DNA of 64,000 nucleotides, taken from positions 1 through 64,000 of the forward strand of contig NZ_JAMZGM010000011.1 in the NCBI RefSeq assembly GCF_024158605.1, read 5' to 3'. The position numbers and the translations under genes are program-made. The notes under the pieces are model-generated. The model was given only the letters and a program-made list of their open reading frames with translations, was not told the origin of the DNA and ran no database searches. The DNA comes from Sebaldella sp. S0638. GTDB taxonomy: Bacteria; Fusobacteriota; Fusobacteriia; Fusobacteriales; Leptotrichiaceae. Positions 10,894-20,220 of the stretch are shown here, in pieces. Positions within the stretch are counted from its first letter, which is position 1. The number at the start of each line of letters is the position of its first letter.

Positions 10894-11430
10894 TTATGGA
10901 AGCTGAAATGTGGAAATCAGCTCCAGCTTTTTATTTTCAAGCGTAAAGAGATAGTATGTCCCGCCCTCAAACATGTCGTCATATACACTTACCACTACTA
11001 CAAAATGCGGTTTATCAATTCCTTCGTAAATAGTGCCTTCTACATCATTGGTATCCAGAAATCTTCCGGTTACATCCAGATATTCATCCCCGAATTCCCC
11101 GTTTTTTTCCAATATACGTTCTTCTACATTAGTTATCTTATTTGTATTAGGATCTACTTTTAATTCACCTATGGAATAAAAAGTGTACGAATCCTTATTT
11201 TTCAGGTCTTTTGCCAGATCATTACTGTTTTTCCAGATTACTTCCTTTGTATTCCCGTCTGTTAACGGATAAGAAATATACTTTGATATTGCTGCTGCAT
11301 CCTTATTTTTTACTGCTTTCTGGAATTCCGCAAACTGTTTCAAAACTTCTTTTTTATCAGTTTCGCTGAAAGTTTCCGAATAAATTCCAATGCTAAAAAT
11401 TAAAAATAATAAAAATAAAACTTTTTTCAT
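10894..11430 (-). CDS. Secreted protein, tandem paralogue 2, unknown function
   Basis: The 178-residue product has a signal peptide (MKKVLFLLFLIFSIGIYS) and no cysteine lipobox, so it is likely periplasmic. The body (DKKEVLKQFAEFQKAVKNKD... ISYPLTDGN ... VSVYDDMFEGGTYYLFTLEN) could be an NTF2-like cone fold, a short helix pair followed by a curved sheet; this is a guess from pattern only. It is a clear duplicate of the gene directly upstream (11494-12045), sharing the signal peptide, the EVIWKNS/SVIWKNS motif and the VYDDM/LYDDM end. It is probably cotranscribed with it, since only 63 bases separate them and a terminator follows. Confidence 0.7.
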   Translation of the reverse strand: MKKVLFLLFLIFSIGIYSETFSETDKKEVLKQFAEFQKAVKNKDAAAISKYISYPLTDGNTKEVIWKNSNDLAKDLKNKDSYTFYSIGELKVDPNTNKITNVEERILEKNGEFGDEYLDVTGRFLDTNDVEGTIYEGIDKPHFVVVVSVYDDMFEGGTYYLFTLENKKLELISTFQLP

Positions 11431-11493
11431 AAAACACCGCTTTCTTTTGATTTTTTTTATTTATTGTTTTTACGATAATTTATAATTTGTTTA

Positions 11494-12045
11494 TTATGGA
11501 AGCTGAAGAAAAGATATTAATTTCAGCTTGTTATCTTTTAGTGTAAAAATATAATAACTCGATCCGTCTACCATATCATCATAAAGTGATACTGTAACCA
11601 CGAAAAGATCATCACTTTTTGAAGCTCCTGAAGTACCGTAATAAAATTCAGCTTCATCAGCAGCAGGAGTGAGAAATTGTCCCGTTACATCCAAGAATGT
11701 ATCTCCGCCTTCCGGACTCTTACTAATCAGTCTCTCTTCCACATTATCTATCTGTCCTGTTTCCGGATTCACTTTCAGTTCATCTATATGAAAAAACACA
11801 TAACTTTCCGGATCTTTAAATTCTTTTATAAACTCACTGCTGTTCTTCCAGATTACACTTTTAGTATTTCCGTCTTTCAGCGGATAAGCCACATATGCTG
11901 AAAGAGAATTTCCATTTTTCTTTTTAAATGCACTCTGAAGTTCCGAAAACTGTTTCAAAACCTCTTTTTTATCAGTTTCAGAAAAAGACTTTGAATATAT
12001 ACCCATGCTAAAAATCAATAGTAATAAAAATAATATTTTTTTCAT
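11494..12045 (-). CDS. Secreted protein, tandem paralogue 1, unknown function
   Basis: The 183-residue paralogue of the downstream gene has a signal peptide (MKKILFLLLLIFSMGIYS), the same SETDKKEVLKQF start, the YPLKDGNTKSVIWKNS block and the YDDMVDGSSYYIFTL end. The two copies differ mainly in the loop around residues 120-145. It has its own 17-bp-spaced promoter and leads a two-gene unit. The family was not recognised. Confidence 0.7.
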   Translation of the reverse strand: MKKILFLLLLIFSMGIYSKSFSETDKKEVLKQFSELQSAFKKKNGNSLSAYVAYPLKDGNTKSVIWKNSSEFIKEFKDPESYVFFHIDELKVNPETGQIDNVEERLISKSPEGGDTFLDVTGQFLTPAADEAEFYYGTSGASKSDDLFVVTVSLYDDMVDGSSYYIFTLKDNKLKLISFLQLP

Positions 12046-13124: not shown

Positions 13125-14120
13125 TTAACTGCTTACTTCTCCAAGAGTAGCCACCATAACAGCTTTTATAGTATGCATTCTGTTTTCCGCCTCATCAAAA
13201 ACAACTGAATTCTCACTTACAAAAACTTCATCAGTAACTTCCATTTCAGTGATCCCGAATTTCTCATACATTTTTTCTCCTGTTTTTGTTTTTATATCAT
13301 GAAAAGCCGGAAGACAATGCATAAACAGATAGTCATCCTTGGCATTTTTCACAAGAGCGCTGTTTACCTGATATGGCTTTAGCTGTTCGATTCTGTCTTT
13401 CCATATGCTTTCATCTTCTCCCATTGACACCCATACATCTGTATATATTACATCACAGTCACTTACTCCCTCCTCTGGATTTTCAGTAAGCGTGATCATT
13501 CCTCCTGATTCTGCCGCCAGTTCTTTGGCCTTTTTCACCAGTTCCTCATTGGGGAAAAGCTCTTTCGGGGCAACAATTCTAAAGTCCATACCAAACTTAG
13601 CCGCGCCTATCATAAGAGAGTTTGCTACATTATTTCTTCCGTCACCCATAAATGCGAATTTTATTCCTGTAAGACTGCCTTTATGCTCAAGTATAGTCAT
13701 AAAGTCTGCCAGTACCTGAGTAGGATGTGATTCTGTGGTCAAACCGTTCCATACAGGCACACCTGCGTATTCAGCCAGCGTCTCCACTATTTCCTGTCCG
13801 TATCCTCTGTATTCCAGCCCGTCATAAAATCTGCCGAGTACCCTTGCAGTATCCTCAATAGATTCCTTATCCCCTATCTGTGAAGTGGAAGGTCCTATAT
13901 AAGTTACATTTGCTCCCTGGTCAAAAGCTGCTACCTCGAATGCACATCTTGTTCTTGTAGATGTTTTCTCAAATATCAGTGCTATATTTTTACCGCTTAA
14001 TTTTTTCATTTCAGCATTATTTTTCTTATCTTCCTTTAGTTTTTTTGATAAATTCAACAAATACTCAAGTTCCTCTTTTGTAAAATCCAGCAGTTTCAAA
14101 AATGACTTTTTTTTCAGCAT
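13125..14120 (-). CDS. argF: Ornithine carbamoyltransferase
   Basis: The 331-residue enzyme joins ornithine and carbamoyl phosphate to citrulline. It shows the carbamoyl-phosphate loop [11 protein letters not shown] near residue 55 and the ornithine-binding HCLPAFHD near residue 270, as expected for the anabolic/catabolic OTCase family. It is the last gene of argC-GNAT-argJ-argB-argD-argF, 27 bases after argD, and is followed by a terminator. No arcA/arcC genes are nearby, which argues for a biosynthetic role. Confidence 0.95.
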
Positions 14121-14147: not shown

Positions 14148-15311
14148 TTATTTTTCAAATATATTCAGTATTTCTTCCATTTTTTCAATTGACTTGTCTA
14201 TTTCTTCCAAAGTAACATTCAACGGCGGAAAATATCTCAAAACGTTATTTCCTGCGGGAATAAGAAGGAATTTATTCTCAAATGCCTTATTTGCAAAATC
14301 TCTCGCTGTTACGCTTTCATCCAGCTTTATCCCTATAAGAAGTCCTGTTCCTCTTATTTCTTCCACCAGTTTATATTTATCTTTTAATTTATTAAGTTTT
14401 TCTATAGCATATTCCCCTTTAGCCTTTACTCCTTCAATGACTTTATTATCCACAAGTTCCGTAAGAACATCATAGGCAACAGCACATACCAGCGGATTAC
14501 CGCCGTATGTAGAGCCGTGGTCTCCGGGTACCATTACATCATTGGCTTTTCCTTTAGTCAGGCATGCACCGATAGGTACTCCTCCTCCCAGTGCCTTTGC
14601 TATAGTAACAATATCAGGTACTACACCTAGCTGTTCATAAGCAAATAATGTTCCCATTCTTCCCATTCCGCACTGAATTTCGTCGAATATCAAAAGAGCA
14701 TTATTCTCATCACAAAGTTCTTTCAGAGCTTTCAGGAATTCAGGAGCTGCTGTTTGTATGCCGCTTTCCCCCTGAACAGGTTCCAGTATTACCGCACAAG
14801 TATTTTTATTTACCTTTGATTTCAAATCCTCTGTATCATTAAATAAACATTCTGTAACATTAGGCAAAAGCGGTTCGAAAGGTTCCTGATATTTTTTCTG
14901 TCCTGTAATTGCAAGAGAACCTGTACTTCTTCCATGAAATGAATCTTTCATGTAAATTATTTCTGTTTTATTTTTATCAATGCTGTTCCCGTATTTTCTT
15001 CCTATTTTTATAGCCAGTTCTATAGCCTCAGTTCCGCTGTTTGAAAAGAATACTCTTTCATGTTCGCTTAAGCCTGTAAGCTTTTCTACGAGCTTAGTCT
15101 GAGCATTACTGTGATATAAATTTGATATATGTATAAGAGTTTCCCCTTGTTTTTTCAAAGCATTTGCTATGACAGGATGAGCATGTCCGAGACAGTTTAC
15201 AGCTATTCCCGATACAAAATCAAGGTATTCGTTTCCCTGATCATCATAAAGATACACACCTTTTCCTTTTACAAAACTTACATTAAACCTGTTATATACA
15301 TTTAATAGCAT
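14148..15311 (-). CDS. argD: Acetylornithine aminotransferase
   Basis: The 387-residue class III PLP aminotransferase converts N-acetylglutamate semialdehyde to N-acetylornithine. It contains the FSNSGTEAIELAIK phosphate-binding loop, the LIFDEIQCGMGRMG segment with the PLP-ring Asp, and AKALGGGVPIGACL with the Schiff-base Lys. It sits between argB and argF in the arginine operon. The ribosome site is AGGAGG. Its place in this operon favours ArgD over a succinylornithine or GABA transaminase. Confidence 0.95.
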   Translation of the reverse strand: MLLNVYNRFNVSFVKGKGVYLYDDQGNEYLDFVSGIAVNCLGHAHPVIANALKKQGETLIHISNLYHSNAQTKLVEKLTGLSEHERVFFSNSGTEAIELAIKIGRKYGNSIDKNKTEIIYMKDSFHGRSTGSLAITGQKKYQEPFEPLLPNVTECLFNDTEDLKSKVNKNTCAVILEPVQGESGIQTAAPEFLKALKELCDENNALLIFDEIQCGMGRMGTLFAYEQLGVVPDIVTIAKALGGGVPIGACLTKGKANDVMVPGDHGSTYGGNPLVCAVAYDVLTELVDNKVIEGVKAKGEYAIEKLNKLKDKYKLVEEIRGTGLLIGIKLDESVTARDFANKAFENKFLLIPAGNNVLRYFPPLNVTLEEIDKSIEKMEEILNIFEK

Positions 15312-15394: not shown

Positions 15395-16270
15395 TCAGTC
15401 ACTTTTTATCATAGTACCGAATCCTTCATATGTAAACAGTTCCAGAAGGATCGAATGTTTTACTTTTCCATTTAGTATTATAACATTTTTTACACCTTTA
15501 TTAACAGCATTTAGGCAGGTATTTACCTTAGGCAGCATCCCCCCTGTGACAATTCCTTCATCTATCAGTTTTTGCACCTCTGCTTTACTTATTTCAGGTA
15601 TCAAAGTTGATTTATCATTATGATCTTTTAATATACCGTCTACATCTGTAAGGAATAAAAGTCTGAATGCATTAAGAACTCCTGCTATTTCACCGGCTAC
15701 ATAATCTGCATTGATATTATAGGTATTTCCTTCGAGATCCTGACCTATTGATGATATCACCGGGATATAATCTTTTTCCGCAAGTATCTCTATTATTTCG
15801 GGATTTATCTTCACTACCTCGCCGACAAAACCTATATCCAGCTTCTGATCATCTTTTTCTATGTACTTTTTCTTGGCAAGAATAAGATTGCCGTCTTTTC
15901 CGCTCAATCCCACAGCTTTCCCGCCGTGCTTATTTATATCTGCCACGATTCCTTTATTCAGCTTGGCTGAAAGGATCATTTCCGCTACTTCCACTGTTTC
16001 AATATCACTTACTCTGTTTCCTTCCACAAACTCGGTTTCTTTCCCGAGTTTTTTCAGCATAAGATTTATTTCAGGCCCGCCTCCATGGATAATTACAGGG
16101 TTTATTCCTACATATTTCATAAGCACGACATCCTTTATGAATTCTTCCCTTATTTCCTCGTCTGCCATTGCACTTCCGCCGTATTTTATTACTACTGTCT
16201 TTCCGTAATATTTTCGTATAAACGGCAGGGCTTCTATTAGTATATCCGCTTTTTCATGATTGCTTATCAT
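15395..16270 (-). CDS. argB: Acetylglutamate kinase
   Basis: The 291-residue amino-acid kinase phosphorylates N-acetylglutamate. It has the VIKYGGSAMAD nucleotide loop, the VIIHGGGPEI substrate loop and the NINADYVAGEIA block. The length suits the longer, arginine-inhibited ArgB type: the N-terminal helix HEKADILIEALPFIRKYYGK is present and is used for hexamer formation and feedback inhibition in that class. It would thus be both a feedback point and part of the operon under the attenuator. Confidence 0.95.
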   Translation of the reverse strand: MISNHEKADILIEALPFIRKYYGKTVVIKYGGSAMADEEIREEFIKDVVLMKYVGINPVIIHGGGPEINLMLKKLGKETEFVEGNRVSDIETVEVAEMILSAKLNKGIVADINKHGGKAVGLSGKDGNLILAKKKYIEKDDQKLDIGFVGEVVKINPEIIEILAEKDYIPVISSIGQDLEGNTYNINADYVAGEIAGVLNAFRLLFLTDVDGILKDHNDKSTLIPEISKAEVQKLIDEGIVTGGMLPKVNTCLNAVNKGVKNVIILNGKVKHSILLELFTYEGFGTMIKSD

Positions 16271-16317: not shown

Positions 16318-17538
16318 TTATGTTCTGTAATCAGCATTTATTTTTACATAATCATAAGTGAGATCACAGCCCCATGCTGTAGCATCATGATTACCGTCGT
16401 TCAGATTAACTATAACTCCTACTTTTTCCTCTTTTAGTATTTTTTCCACTTCTTCCTCGCTGAATTCTATTCCCATGCCGTTTTTTGCCACCTGAATCAT
16501 CTGATTTTCCCCTTTTATAAATATCTCAATTTTATCCACAATCAGCTCTGCACCTGAATATCCCACTGCACATAATATTCTTCCCCAGTTTGCATCTGAA
16601 CCAAATACTGCTGCTTTAAAAAGGCTTGAAGTAACAACAGATTTTGATACTTTTTTGGCATCTTCCATTGTTCTTGCATTTTTTGCAGTTACTTCTATGA
16701 GCTTTGTTGCTCCTTCACCGTCTTTAGCTATAGATTTGGCAAGCTCTTTATTGACAAAATTGAGAGCTTCCTTAAAAGTCTTATATCCTTCACTGTTTTC
16801 ATCAGTTATTTTTGTATTTTCGGCCGCACCGTTGGCAAGGATACCTGCCATATCATTGGTACTTGTATCTCCGTCTACTGAAACCATATTGTAAGAATCA
16901 TCTGTACTTTCAGAAAATGCTTTTTGCAGCAGTTTTTTATCTATACTCACGTCTGTGACCAGAAATGCAAGCATTGTTGCCATATTAGGATGTATCATTC
17001 CGGATCCTTTGGCTATTCCGGCTATCGTCACTTCTTTTCCGTCAATATTCATTTTTACTGCTGTATTCTTAGGAAAAGTATCTGTAGTCATTATTGCTTC
17101 GCCGGCATTATGCCCTCCGTCTTCGCTAAGTTCGGCAACCACGCTTTCAAGCCCTTTCGTTACTTTCTCCATATCCATCTGCACGCCTATAATTCCAGTT
17201 GACTCTACCAAAACTTCTGCCGGCAGTAAATTCAGCTTTTCAGCAATTACTTCTGTCATTTTCTTTGCATTTATATAACCGCTTTCTCCTGTACACGCAT
17301 TGGCATTCCCGCTGTTTACCACAATTGCCTGTGTATTTTCCGATTTTATATTTTCCATGTCCACAAGTATCGGTGCAGCTTTTACCATATTTTTCGTAAA
17401 TACTGCGGCAGATACTGCTTTATATTCGCTATAGATCAATGCCAGATCTTTTTTCCCGCTTTTTTTCAGTCCCGCAGTAATTCCGGCGGCCTTAAATCCT
17501 TTTACATCTGTAATTGTTCCGTTCTTAATTACATCCAT
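16318..17538 (-). CDS. argJ: Bifunctional glutamate N-acetyltransferase / ornithine acetyltransferase
   Basis: The 406-residue protein belongs to the ArgJ family, which recycles the acetyl group from N-acetylornithine to glutamate and often also makes N-acetylglutamate from acetyl-CoA. The self-cleavage site lies in KGSGMIHPNMATML, where the Thr becomes the nucleophile of the beta chain. With ArgJ present, no ArgE deacetylase is needed, and none is seen. It lies in the operon between the GNAT gene and argB. Confidence 0.95.
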   Translation of the reverse strand: MDVIKNGTITDVKGFKAAGITAGLKKSGKKDLALIYSEYKAVSAAVFTKNMVKAAPILVDMENIKSENTQAIVVNSGNANACTGESGYINAKKMTEVIAEKLNLLPAEVLVESTGIIGVQMDMEKVTKGLESVVAELSEDGGHNAGEAIMTTDTFPKNTAVKMNIDGKEVTIAGIAKGSGMIHPNMATMLAFLVTDVSIDKKLLQKAFSESTDDSYNMVSVDGDTSTNDMAGILANGAAENTKITDENSEGYKTFKEALNFVNKELAKSIAKDGEGATKLIEVTAKNARTMEDAKKVSKSVVTSSLFKAAVFGSDANWGRILCAVGYSGAELIVDKIEIFIKGENQMIQVAKNGMGIEFSEEEVEKILKEEKVGVIVNLNDGNHDATAWGCDLTYDYVKINADYRT

Positions 17539-17590: not shown

Positions 17591-18085
17591 TCATGCAGTT
17601 TTTAATATCAATGACCAGAATTCCACATCTATAAACTTTCCGAATTTATTTGCCGCTTCTTTAAAATGTCCTGTTTTCTTAAATCCGGTATTTTTATGAA
17701 GCTTTTTGCTCGCAGTATTTGTATTCGCCAAAACTCCGATTAATACATGAAAGCCTGCTTCTCTGCATTTTTCTATTAATGAGTTATAAAGCTTTTTCCC
17801 AGTTCCTTTTGTTTTCTTATCTTTATCCACATATACACTTGTTTCCAGCGTATTGTTATGTGATATCCGTTCTCTCCATTTTCTTACATAAGCATAACCT
17901 GTTACGATTCCCTCTTCTTCATGAACAATAAACGGATAACCGTATTCCAGCGTTTCCATTATTCTTTTTTCCATTTCTTTTATATCTATTTCCTCTGTTT
18001 CAAAAGTAACCATTGTTTCTTTTACATAATAATTATATATTCCGGCTATTGCTCCGGCATCGCTTAATCTTACACTTCTAATCAT
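17591..18085 (-). CDS. GNAT-family N-acetyltransferase inside the arginine operon
   Basis: The 164-residue GNAT protein is closest in pattern to the phosphinothricin/methionine-sulfoximine acetyltransferase group: MIRSVRLSDAGAIAGIYNYYV at the start, ETSVYVDKDKKTKGTGKKLYNSLIE with the acetyl-CoA pyrophosphate loop, and NTASKKLHKNTGFKKTGHFKEAANKFGKFID. It lies between argC and argJ with short gaps (26 and 52 bases) and its own ribosome site, so it is cotranscribed. Its substrate is unknown. An N-acetylglutamate synthase role is possible from context, but the family usually acetylates amino-acid analogues. Confidence 0.8.
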   Translation of the reverse strand: MIRSVRLSDAGAIAGIYNYYVKETMVTFETEEIDIKEMEKRIMETLEYGYPFIVHEEEGIVTGYAYVRKWRERISHNNTLETSVYVDKDKKTKGTGKKLYNSLIEKCREAGFHVLIGVLANTNTASKKLHKNTGFKKTGHFKEAANKFGKFIDVEFWSLILKTA

Positions 18086-18111: not shown

Positions 18112-19149
18112 TTATACATACATAGACAGATAGTCCAGTCCTTCTGTTTCAGGAAGCCCGAACATAATGTTCATAGCCTGCACAGCCTGTCCTCCTGCAC
18201 CCTTTATGAGATTATCTATTACAGACACTACTATTATTTTCTTTTTCTTAATGTCTGCCCTTATTCCTATCTCACAAATATTTGTATTTTTTATGTTCTT
18301 AATTTCAGGAAGCTCTTTGCTTATTCTTACAAAATAATCATCTTTGTAGAATTCCTCATATATCTTATAAATCTCTTCCTCGGTTATTTCCTCTGTCATA
18401 TCCAGATACAGCGTGGAAAGTATTCCTCTGTTTATAGGAAGCAGATGTGGCGTAAAGATTACTGATGTTTCCTTTCCTGCCGCCTTTCCCATTTCCTGTT
18501 CTATTTCAGGTGTATGTCTGTGCATAAACAGATTATATGCCTTGAAATTTTCATTTACCTCTGTAAAAAGCGAATCTGTTTTTAATCCTCTTCCTGCTCC
18601 CGAAACTCCTGACTTGGAATCTACAATTATATTTTCTGTCTTTACCAGATTTTTCTTTAATAACGGTGCTGATGCCAGTATTGCCGATGTGGGATAACAT
18701 CCCGGCGCAGCTATTATACTGCTTTCTTTTATTTTTTCCCTGTATAGTTCAGGAAGTCCGTAGACAGCCTGTTTATTTATTTCAGGGGTCTCATGTTTTA
18801 CTTTGTACCAGTTTTCATATGTTTCAGAATCATCAAGACGAAAATCCGCTCCAAGGTCTATTACTTTTACTCCTGATTTCAACGCCTGCCCTGCGAGCTT
18901 TTCAGACATTCCGTGGGGAAGAGCCAGAAATAAAACATCTATTTCACTAAGTTTTGTTCCCGCTTCTTCCTGTGAGATAAGTTTCTGCCCGAAATATTTT
19001 TTATAGTTACCGTATACTTCTGAAATATCCTTTCCTTCATAGCTGTTTGAAGATATAAATTTTATTTCAGTTTCCTTATGCATATTCAGAATCCACAAAA
19101 GCTGCTGTCCTGCATAACCTGTGGCTCCTACCACTCCTACTTTTATCAT
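18112..19149 (-). CDS. argC: N-acetyl-gamma-glutamyl-phosphate reductase
   Basis: The 345-residue enzyme reduces N-acetylglutamyl phosphate to the semialdehyde with NADPH. It has the dinucleotide loop GVVGATGYAGQQ, the active Cys 151 in AAPGCYPTSA, and the catalytic His region HRHTPEIEQE. The start at 19149 is set by AGGAGG seven bases upstream. A longer open frame to 19218 would run through the attenuator hairpin and is rejected. It is the first structural gene of the operon, preceded by an arginine-codon leader and terminator. Confidence 0.95.
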   Translation of the reverse strand: MIKVGVVGATGYAGQQLLWILNMHKETEIKFISSNSYEGKDISEVYGNYKKYFGQKLISQEEAGTKLSEIDVLFLALPHGMSEKLAGQALKSGVKVIDLGADFRLDDSETYENWYKVKHETPEINKQAVYGLPELYREKIKESSIIAAPGCYPTSAILASAPLLKKNLVKTENIIVDSKSGVSGAGRGLKTDSLFTEVNENFKAYNLFMHRHTPEIEQEMGKAAGKETSVIFTPHLLPINRGILSTLYLDMTEEITEEEIYKIYEEFYKDDYFVRISKELPEIKNIKNTNICEIGIRADIKKKKIIVVSVIDNLIKGAGGQAVQAMNIMFGLPETEGLDYLSMYV

Positions 19150-19176
19150 TTTATTTCCTCCTGATTTTATTTTTAT

Positions 19177-19214
19177 AAAAAAAGGAATCTTATGACAATT
19201 CATCATAAGATTCC
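19177..19214 (-). terminator. Attenuator terminator in front of argC
   Basis: A perfect 12-bp stem (GGAATCTTATGA and its complement) around a 7-base loop, followed by seven U residues. It lies only 27 bases before the argC start codon, so it would stop transcription before the operon unless prevented from folding. The upstream neighbour gene (19507-20220) is 290 bases away, and a leader frame and promoter lie between, so it is not that gene's terminator. Confidence 0.85.
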
Positions 19215-19250
19215 GCATATATACTTATTTCATCTAGCATTTATAATAAA

Positions 19251-19276
19251 AGTCAACAGCTTTAGGGCCATTGACT
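19251..19276 (-). promoter_or_regulatory. Intermediate hairpin in the arg leader
   Basis: AGTCAA pairs with TTGACT across 14 bases that contain a further short GGC/GCT helix. Its 5' arm (TTAGTC) can also pair with GACTAA at the end of the leader frame, so it may be part of the switching structure or a pause hairpin. Confidence 0.5.
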
Positions 19277-19318
19277 AACATTACTTATCCATCTATCTCT
19301 ATATATACAATGATTAAA

Positions 19319-19384
19319 TTAGTCATGACAAGGGTATTTAATTCTAAAATTTCTTTCCCTTATCCTTCTTATAAATTTAATCAT
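19319..19384 (-). CDS. Arginine-rich leader peptide of the arg operon
   Basis: A 21-codon frame with ATG at 19384 and TAA at 19321-19319. It begins MIKFIRRIRERNFR and ends with Tyr-Pro-Cys-His-Asp. Five of the 21 residues are Arg (positions 6, 7, 9, 11, 14), read by AGA and AGG only; this density is far above that of the neighbouring genes. A ribosome site GGTGA lies five bases upstream, and a promoter about 40 bases upstream. It is followed by complementary RNA segments and a terminator before argC, as in the his, trp and leu leader peptides. I read it as the sensor of charged tRNA-Arg. Confidence 0.75.
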   Translation of the reverse strand: MIKFIRRIRERNFRIKYPCHD

Positions 19385-19425
19385 TGCACTCACCACTCTT
19401 TCTTTTATATTTTTATTATAAAAAA

Positions 19426-19454
19426 AGTATATCAGATTTTTTTCGAAAAATCAA
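19426..19454 (-). promoter_or_regulatory. Promoter of the arginine operon
   Basis: TTGATT and TATACT with a 17-base spacer on the minus strand. The transcript would start near 19419, giving a leader RNA of about 270 bases before argC. Confidence 0.65.
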
Positions 19455-19476
19455 TATGTTTTGTATATCGATTTTT
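19446..19476. promoter_or_regulatory. Inverted repeat over the arg promoter -35
   Basis: AAAAATC-N-ATAT and ATAT-N-GATTTTT arms separated by about seven bases overlap and extend upstream of the -35 box. It could be a repressor or activator site. It does not match the usual ArgR box, so the protein is unknown. Confidence 0.35.
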
Positions 19477-19506
19477 AATGAAATCATATATAAAAACAAT
19501 TCTTAA

Positions 19507-20220
19507 TTATTTTTGCTTCTCTATTTCAAGAACAAGCTTTATATTATCCTTTTCCAGCTGTGATAAAAACTTCTCTGCATTTTCCACATTGCTGTAATAC
19601 CAGTCCTGCTTTGAGAAATACTTGTCCATATCCCCGCCTTTTTTGAAACTCATGTTGTATCTTGCATAAACTTCATTTCTCATTATTTTTAATTCTTCTT
19701 TTGATTTTTTAGAAAGCTCTTCTTTTGTAATCTCTCTTGTGGACATTTCCGGATATTTCCCCGGCATATAGAGCTCTCCGCTGTAATTACCGAATTCATA
19801 ACTTTTCTTTCCGTTTTCAGTAACAGTCTCCAGTACTCCCCTTACATTTTCTTTGGTGTATATCATGAATTCTGCATTCATTCCTGAAACGACTATTTTA
19901 TTTCCTTCTATTTTCACATTATTATAATTATCTACAATCAAATCCCATTTGTTCTTTTTAACATTATACTCTGCCCAATAAAGCTGTGCATATACTTTCC
20001 CTGCCGGTGTTACAATTATTTTGAGCGTAGATTCTCCCTCTGATTCGCCAAAGTGGTACTCACCTTTATATTTGGAGATATCACTGACAGTATCTTTCCT
20101 GAAATCTTTTAAGGTTACACCTTCTAAGTCTTCTCCTCCCCAGTAAATCTCCTCTGCACTAAATGCAGATGTAAATAATAATACCATTATACATATGCTT
20201 GCTGTAATTACTTTTTTCAT
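19507..20220 (-). CDS. Secreted YARHG-domain protein
   Basis: The 237-residue protein has a signal peptide (to about residue 22) and a beta-rich middle that resembles the MORN-like 'YKGEYHFGESEGESTLKI' pattern. Its C-terminal YARHG domain reads ELKIMRNEVYARYNMSFKKGGDMDKYFSKQDWY. YARHG domains are extracellular or periplasmic and of unknown activity, often in peptidase- or surface-linked proteins. It is a monocistronic unit upstream of, and separate from, the arg leader. Confidence 0.8.
   Translation of the reverse strand: MKKVITASICIMVLLFTSAFSAEEIYWGGEDLEGVTLKDFRKDTVSDISKYKGEYHFGESEGESTLKIIVTPAGKVYAQLYWAEYNVKKNKWDLIVDNYNNVKIEGNKIVVSGMNAEFMIYTKENVRGVLETVTENGKKSYEFGNYSGELYMPGKYPEMSTREITKEELSKKSKEELKIMRNEVYARYNMSFKKGGDMDKYFSKQDWYYSNVENAEKFLSQLEKDNIKLVLEIEKQK

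Follow-up and report, generated by a model that had tools for sequence, protein, structure and literature searches.

A probable arginine-codon leader-peptide attenuator with two successive terminators upstream of argC in Sebaldella and other Fusobacteriota

Arginine biosynthesis is a textbook case of control by the ArgR repressor, and ArgR operators and arginine T-boxes control arginine genes in other bacteria. The his, trp and leu operons of proteobacteria are attenuated through a short leader rich in the regulated amino acid, alternative pairings of RNA regions (1:2, 2:3 and 3:4) and an intrinsic terminator before the operon. Here we analyze a candidate leader of this general type upstream of argC in a 64,000-nucleotide stretch of the genome of Sebaldella sp. 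S0638 (contig NZ_JAMZGM010000011.1, positions 1 to 64,000; hereafter the window), where a tiny arginine-rich frame and two RNA stop signals probably let the ribosome gauge arginine supply. Comparison of sequences leads us to conclude that the element is very likely a ribosome-mediated transcription attenuator sensing arginyl-tRNA, an arginine-specific variant of classical leader-peptide attenuation.

Leader peptides with arginine control codons have been described at other genes. In the available portion of a study of Salmonella speF, two consecutive Arg codons in the short leader frame orf34 sense arginine by ribosome pausing, and orf34 controls ornithine decarboxylase via Rho, RNase G and masking of the ribosome site, with no intrinsic terminator seen by the authors in that portion (PMC6386406). 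The accessible part of a report on S. aureus describes AGA/AGG codons of the leader peptide rbfL that sense arginine shortage (PMC13009471). Excerpts of two further papers describe uORFC-8-2, a cysS leader of Rhodobacterales proposed by comparative genomics as an attenuator with control codons in the first stem and a U-tailed terminator (PMC8632094), and the rimP leader of some Gammaproteobacteria, a precedent for a tandem second terminator within an attenuator (PMC2965389). Among the titles listed from the literature searched, from which most subscription journals are absent, there was no paper on an Arg-codon leader of arginine biosynthesis genes or on such a leader in Fusobacteria, which agrees, within the limits of those searches, with an initial annotation of this DNA, whose author knew of no comparable standard leader for arg genes.

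Coordinates follow the numbering of the window; leader and operon lie on the minus strand, which was read directly over 19454-19149, and all evidence consists of sequence comparison and modelled RNA folding. The initial annotation had proposed a promoter, an Arg-rich leader frame, a 12-nucleotide complementarity between leader start and stop, and a terminator before argC, and these parts stand: the hexamers TTGATT-17-TATACT are present at 19454-19426, the frame occupies 19384-19319 with Arg at codons 6, 7, 9, 11 and 14, and the terminator (T2) is a perfect 12-bp stem (19214-19184) followed by U7 (19183-19177), 27 nucleotides from the argC ATG (19149). The complementarity is real and belongs to a 16-pair helix, 19389-19374 with 19320-19305, the outer helix of a hairpin 1:2. 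Two elements of the leader had been overlooked, however, namely a further hairpin, T1 (19276-19251), and an inner 1:2 helix, GAUAAGGG/CCCUUGUC (19364-19357 with 19334-19327), in which Arg codons 7 and 9 stand opposite CCCUUGUC. The translated-looking frame, with start and ribosome site, is placed between the putative promoter and the first gene and carries excess codons for the amino acid that the operon makes; in the predicted structure, the control codons lie inside helix 1:2 and 3:4 is an intrinsic terminator.

In the mechanism that we propose, the leader would be translated while RNA polymerase transcribes the region. When arginine is plentiful, the ribosome would reach the stop codon inside region 2; the ribosome at the stop, or hairpin 1:2 after its release, would make region 2 unavailable, the T1 hairpin would form, and the polymerase would then stop at T1 or T2. 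When arginyl-tRNA is short, the ribosome would stall on the AGA/AGG codons that form the 5' strand of the inner 1:2 helix, freeing region 2 to pair with region 3 before region 4 is made, so that T1 would be blocked and the operon could be transcribed. An untranslated leader would fold into 1:2, making termination the default. Translation of the leader, its coupling to transcription, the arginine dependence and passage through T2 are predicted steps of this scheme.

A conserved frame with its Arg core, covarying hairpins 1:2 and T1, tandem hairpins, linkage to argC, related leaders at other arginine genes and the lack of an ArgR domain over cut-off in 60 genomes together point to such an attenuator. 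We compared 33 genomes of the window's family (f1, which we take to be Leptotrichiaceae, as we take f4 to be Fusobacteriaceae) and 98 genomes of the phylum. Among the family genomes, 17 of 33 possess argC, and the element is found in all 17 of these and, with 30 candidates scored per genome, in none of the 16 without argC. A close relative, L032, has an argC that is 80% identical. The family matches are the training sequences of model R1, and were first read without the model. Across the phylum, argC is present in 31 of 98 genomes, and in 26 of the 31 upstream regions read an Arg leader lies directly upstream (the 17 of the family, G042, three of g20, two of g14 and three of g26/g27). A search with R1 over the 98 genomes returned its own training sequences as 18 matches; a 19th (L087, E 0.004), located after an apparent ribosomal-protein gene, was rejected as chance.

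Two variants of this arrangement were seen. In L063-L065, two Arg leaders stand in series before argC, each followed by terminator-like hairpins, the second leader (MRRYRRIRSKYNIQY in L065) and a third terminator-like hairpin lying between the first set and argC. In L024 (G044), a distant argC-type gene of another genus, an upstream frame with an RIR core, MQSMARQRIRTYFFEENIRFLIFYHI, is followed by what looks by eye like a terminator-like hairpin.

The number of Arg codons in the leader is not decisive by itself, as 2 of the 503 ATG frames of 13-35 codons in the window have at least five Arg within 21 residues; rather, the leader stands above chance because it is conserved in relatives. An RRIRER/RRIRD-type core is retained in the relatives' leaders, and every one of the 30 AGGA(T/C) cores found within the first 55 nucleotides of the 26 leaders shares the reading frame of the start, even though the distance from core to AUG takes values of 9, 15, 18, 21 or 27 nucleotides. 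Arg codons make up 99 of 642 leader codons compared with 229 of 9019 argC codons, and AGG accounts for 60 of the 99 and 56 of the 229, respectively, although frames outside the aligned family were selected in part by a scan for short frames rich in Arg, and the frame and codon figures are therefore not fully independent. Within the family, start, ribosome site and core align, while the C-terminal half and the stop position vary among relatives. Loss of the frame or its Arg codons beside a retained terminator in close relatives, which the initial annotation had named as grounds for refutation, was not seen in the 26 argC leaders, in which frame, Arg core and hairpins persist together. Ribosome-mediated attenuation at Arg codons is in this respect well supported by comparison, while the functional dependence on arginine is a prediction.

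Hairpins 1:2 and T1 covary. The consensus fold of alignment A2, with 18 sequences, comprises hairpin 1:2, with its outer and inner helices, and T1, and 96.4% of its cells are paired, compared with at most 52.9% in control structures slid along the alignment. There are 42 cells changed on both sides, where shuffles give 14.8 and none of the 500 reaches 42; pairs with double changes number 10, against 6.1 (1 of 500 as high). These shuffle counts are not probabilities because the structure came from the alignment and the sequences are related. Two successive U-tailed hairpins precede argC in all 26 argC leaders, a count made without a shuffle control and after a weaker hairpin further upstream had been set aside in L007, L009, L010 and L064; L016 and L063-L065 have a further hairpin downstream. 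In the window, where T1 is weak, with a short U-tract, and T2 strong, a scan of 18900-19900 found 2 terminator-like sites against 0.3 expected.

The initial annotation had suggested that the segment at the leader stop, once freed, would disturb T2. Arg-codon attenuation holds up in our analysis but this direct target does not: pairing of region 2 with the T2 5' arm is not above shuffles over the set (median P 0.33; window 0.31) and was rejected, and T1 is the likelier target of the antiterminator. In favor of the T2 pairing, individual loci reach P 0.005-0.035 (L017, L021, L019, L061 and L062), and in the window the native partner does better than 21 of the 22 taken from other clades. With region 3 (19279-19267), region 2 (19329-19318) of the window forms 12 pairs with one bulge, and its pairing with the T1 5' arm gives shuffle P values of 0.00 as a duplex and 0.02 in co-transcriptional folding.

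We modelled co-transcriptional folding with transcripts cut before region 4, a ribosome masked at the Arg codons or at the stop, and shuffled region 3 as control. In the window, the expected number of 2:3 pairs is 5.5 for naked RNA, 11.6 with the ribosome at Arg 7 and 0.3 with the ribosome at the stop, and the medians over the 26 leaders are 1.8, 8.5 and 1.0. Compared with naked RNA, stalling adds more than one modelled pair in 22 of the 26 leaders and removes more than one in none; compared with the ribosome at the stop, the stalled value is higher by more than one pair in 23 of 26. With region 3 shuffled, the stalled mean is 4.7 pairs compared with 7.5 observed, the observed value exceeding the shuffled mean in 22 of 26, so that part of the rise arises because freeing region 2 at all gives pairing. 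With one sequence for each of nine clades and 300 shuffles, the Fisher P is 0.02 (window 0.02, L021 0.007), the clades, and the lowest-numbered locus to represent each of them, having been chosen by the analyst. Shuffle-controlled support for a 2:3 antiterminator favored by stalling is, in these models, moderate.

Several observations weigh against the attenuator as drawn. In five genomes with argC, no leader lies directly upstream, none being seen in L022 and L023 and other genes or sequence preceding argC in L060, L066 and L067; Fusobacteriota without ArgR therefore do not all use the leader there. Only two Arg codons are present in the L006 leader and in the L017 leader, and the L008 leader ends after codon 13, 5' of region 2, with modelled stalling slightly lowering its 2:3 pairing (3.6 to 2.8). 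Pairing of 2:3 lies below the shuffled mean in L006, L007, L010 and L012, is clearly above shuffles only in L001 (the window's own locus), L002, L021, L062 and L065 (P 0.02-0.03), and is not significant singly in seven of the nine clade representatives. The structure tested for covariation was derived from the very alignment on which it was tested, and further pair types occur at the level of shuffles (27 compared with 26.0; 181 of 500 as high). At equilibrium, T1 and T2 form in the majority of modelled states, including those in which a ribosome occupies the Arg codons, and in most sequences the switch does not appear; the attenuator model thus rests on kinetic trapping, which also underlies other attenuators; equilibrium folding with a masked ribosome was not discriminating as a test and was replaced by folding of truncated transcripts. 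Finally, T2 of the window is stronger than T1 (-16.0 compared with -11.4 kcal/mol), and the scheme as drawn does not account for passage of T2 once T1 is disarmed.

A six-segment relay could account for that passage if 2:3 disarmed T1 and the freed region 4 then paired with region 5, the 5' arm of T2; a single stalled ribosome would in this way disarm both terminators. In the window, TTTATTATAA can form 10 pairs with TTATGATGAA; the 4:5 duplex beats shuffled partners at P of 0.015 or less in L005, L007-L013, L015-L018 and L065, and engaging region 3 brings the modelled formation of T2 to 0.05 or less in L007-L010, L015 and L017. However, any A-rich arm pairs with U-tracts, the duplex P in the window is 0.25, formation of T2 stays above 0.8 in 19 of 26 leaders despite the engagement of region 3, and with one sequence per clade in context the Fisher P is 0.20 (window 0.85); region 5 of L021 and L062 was clipped in the duplex test, which understates their 4:5 values. 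The relay is not supported, and we consider it unlikely.

Neither of the usual arginine regulators was detected. Among 60 genomes, the window's own and 59 relatives, none has a match over cut-off to the ArgR DNA-binding domain (PF01316), with one sub-threshold match in G044, or to the C-terminal domain (PF02863); the same searches found PF01316 in 9 and PF02863 in 8 of 14 control genomes. No Rfam family, T-box included, matches in the window at the gathering score or in 13 loci, among them L001, at E of 1 or less. The Rfam scan and the 60-genome domain search place the locus neither among T-boxes nor in an ArgR regulon.

Leaders of related appearance occur at other genes. A search of the 98 genomes with a leader pattern is not enriched by itself, because its 79 places in 50 genomes compare with about 99 for the reversed control pattern. 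We selected 19 of the 79 by visual inspection, on the basis of spacing and a core in frame, so that their Arg content reflects the selection and the downstream gene alone is independent of it: 14 precede an amino-acid transporter of the ABC (ATP-binding cassette) type (permease, ATPase, binding protein) and 5 precede an amidohydrolase gene followed by a binding protein. Family names were checked for L124, L178 and L192, the other transporters and amidohydrolases being assigned by likeness; the transporter proteins score below NCBIfam cut-offs and no substrate was assigned from them. In L178, argH follows directly, and on the contig of L066 a leader, MRNLRNLRKRKKIEN (L192), stands before a transporter gene that is itself upstream of argG and argC.

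Model R2, built from 13 pattern loci and six argC leaders, has matches in 36 of 98 genomes at E of 0.01 or less. We examined 20 matches outside the training set and later L198, leaving out G091:C42, G072:C70, G045:C6, G071:C48 and most matches weaker than about E 5e-4, including a partial match in G002. A transporter follows in 13 of the 20 held-out loci, and an antiporter-like gene (sole NCBIfam match Tet(35), far below cut-off) and then argH in four (argH checked in L183); L176 precedes an argC-like frame of 227 amino acids (G094 is not among the 31 argC genomes), L177 precedes argS (TIGR00456, E 1.8e-111) and L191 precedes argH (TIGR00838, E 7e-201). A short frame containing two or more Arg codons is present, under a permissive rule, in all but one of the 20. 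The start of a second Arg leader was seen before argS in L177. The 260 nucleotides upstream of argG were surveyed, mostly by eye, in 19 regions from 18 genomes, and leaders were seen only in the three genomes of the genus Sebaldella; these short leaders (L091, L092 and L096; MRNNFRIMFSHNFIQ / MKNFFRMTRINKT / MKKNFRIMNLDNFIQ) contain only one or two Arg codons, and each is accompanied by what looks by eye like a terminator-like hairpin. As a tentative and somewhat doubtful extension, Arg-codon leader attenuators might run an arginine regulon throughout Fusobacteriota, substituting for ArgR, possibly with a separate sensor or factor site in the f4 element described below; the regulon would embrace the argC operon, argG, argH, argS (G094), amino-acid ABC transporters, the antiporter-like gene found with argH, and a gene for an M20 amidohydrolase.

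In f4 genomes, the motif AAAGAUU, a variable stem and AUGAGYAUA lie between hairpin 1:2 and T1, and the stem changes letters but stays paired. This pattern has 48 places in 30 of 98 genomes compared with 4 for the reversed control, and 16 of the 20 held-out R2 loci contain it; we noted it in L019, L020, L061, L063-L065, L128-L130, L133-L142, most of L173-L191, and L193-L198. The exact pattern has no match in the window's genome, and among the four genomes of that genus only G001 has one, an isolated match; further isolated matches in family genomes are those of G006 and G012. Among the sites read, only L191, at argH and upstream of the argH-argG-argC cluster of L060, and L198, at an amino-acid permease gene, lack a leader frame. 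Because it also occurs where there is no leader frame, the f4 element might act on the same terminators as a distinct sensor or as a binding site for a factor, which is our guess.

The same element bears on an alternative to attenuation, in which a structured RNA sensor, either a riboswitch or a protein-binding leader, would control the terminators, the Arg frame being incidental and AGGAUAAGGG being kept by base pairing alone. Such a sensor would fit the conservation of the core at the nucleotide level, its pairing with CCCUUGUC, and the presence of the f4 element in many of the same leaders as well as at the two frameless sites. It fits less well with a core that is in frame at several start distances, accompanied by a ribosome site and an Arg excess, with downstream genes that are arginine genes, argS included, or with the near absence of the exact f4 pattern from the window's genus, and we judge it improbable. 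Instead of termination, the leader might affect translation initiation or the stability of the RNA, as the published Arg-codon leaders, Salmonella orf34-speF and S. aureus rbfL, do according to the available parts of their reports (PMC6386406, PMC13009471), but this is improbable given that two U-tailed hairpins stand close before argC in every one of the 26 leaders.

The tandem hairpins might also be ordinary terminators of the upstream gene and the frame mere noise, as a gene on the same strand (19507-20220) does end upstream of the leader. A promoter-like site and the leader stand between that gene and the hairpins, however, and the element tracks argC through the family, both of which argue against ordinary terminators and make this explanation very improbable. 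The promoter-like site itself belongs to a class that is not rarer than expected by chance (3 found in the stretch compared with 5.0 expected); sites matching at least 9 of 12 positions lie 27-58 nucleotides 5' of the leader in 25 of the 26 argC leaders, counted without a shuffle control, with L016 as the exception (best score 8) and a poor -35 in the best site of L011.

Over the -35 region, at 19446-19476, there is an imperfect inverted repeat, AAAAATCGATAT-ACAAAAC-ATATTGATTTTT, which, judged by eye, is conserved within the genus and approximately so in other genomes of the family; it is a possible operator of some regulator. Downstream, the operon argCJBDF of the initial annotation has the genes named, but a GNAT acetyltransferase gene between argC and argJ (17591-18085; best match ArsN1 family B, 162 bits, cut-off 210) had been missed. 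Among 30 other argC loci, a full-length relative of this gene lies beside argC only in L002 (90%) and in L006 of G042 (67%), and a remnant does so in L003. This distribution, together with the 70% identity of the G042 argC, suggests that the operon may have been transferred together with its leader. Elsewhere in the window, 10894-12045 encodes two adjacent paralogous secreted-looking proteins of 178 and 183 amino acids, the longer of which (11494-12045) has no NCBIfam match.

Table 1. Predicted parts of the argC leader and genes of the downstream operon, in window coordinates.
Feature	Position	Strand	Basis or remark
Sigma-70-type promoter-like site TTGATT-17-TATACT	19426..19454	-	Direct reading; similar sites upstream of relatives' leaders
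Weak Shine-Dalgarno region of leader, GAGTGGTGAG	19389..19398	-	Clear AGGAGG there in many relatives
Leader peptide frame, MIKFIRRIRERNFRIKYPCHD, 21 codons, 5 Arg (AGA, AGG, AGG, AGA, AGA)	19319..19384	-	
Hairpin 1:2 outer helix, 5' strand, contains leader AUG	19374..19389	-	Covariation
Hairpin 1:2 outer helix, 3' strand, at and after leader stop	19305..19320	-	Covariation
Hairpin 1:2 inner helix, 5' strand, GATAAGGG, over Arg codons 7 and 9	19357..19364	-	99.3% of cells paired
Hairpin 1:2 inner helix, 3' strand, CCCTTGTC	19327..19334	-	
Region 2, antiterminator strand, GTCATGACTAAT, holds leader stop	19318..19329	-	Duplex and co-transcriptional pairing
Region 3, antiterminator partner, GTTAGTCAATGGC, overlaps T1 5' arm	19267..19279	-	Duplex and co-transcriptional pairing
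T1, terminator-like: hairpin 19276-19251 and weak U-tract	19240..19276	-	Hairpin covaries
T2, terminator: hairpin 19214-19184 and U7	19177..19214	-	Second U-tailed hairpin in 26/26 argC leaders
argC, first structural gene	18112..19149	-	TIGR01850, E 4.1e-133
GNAT acetyltransferase gene, ArsN1-like (below cut-off), between argC and argJ	17591..18085	-	
argJ	16318-17538	-	
argB	15395-16270	-	
argD	14148-15311	-	
argF	13125-14120	-	

The arginine genes of these bacteria gain a testable candidate regulator. If the attenuator operates as proposed, it would extend the logic of trp and his to arginine and to Fusobacteriota, placing charged tRNA-Arg in control via leader peptides, and its natural variants (one or two leaders, two terminators, leaders of very different length) would be useful for studying attenuator design. 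Many of these leaders are, moreover, accompanied by a conserved RNA element, with no Rfam match in the scanned loci.

Among known systems, the argC leader most resembles the his, trp and leu attenuators, with which it shares a short leader rich in the relevant amino acid, whose translation is here predicted from sequence, the 1:2/2:3/3:4 logic, here proposed, and a predicted intrinsic terminator before the operon; it differs from them in its amino acid, in its two successive terminators, in its occurrence in Fusobacteriota and in the tandem leaders of some relatives. Unlike genes under ArgR or T-box control, it is accompanied by no ArgR domain over cut-off in the 60 genomes and by no T-box or other Rfam match in the window or the 13 loci. 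Salmonella orf34 is likewise an Arg-codon leader but, in the available portion of its description, does not serve arginine biosynthesis and is without an intrinsic terminator (PMC6386406), and in S. aureus rbfL, as far as the accessible part of the report goes, stalling blocks the ribosome site of a biofilm regulator, a translational effect of opposite sign (PMC13009471). From the excerpts at hand, uORFC-8-2 shares control codons in the first stem but concerns cysteine and a cysteinyl-tRNA synthetase gene in alphaproteobacteria (PMC8632094), and the rimP leader belongs to a different gene and is not presented there as an amino-acid leader-peptide system (PMC2965389). What appears to be new in the argC leader is thus the amino acid, arginine, the phylum and the apparent replacement of ArgR, together with the two successive terminators.
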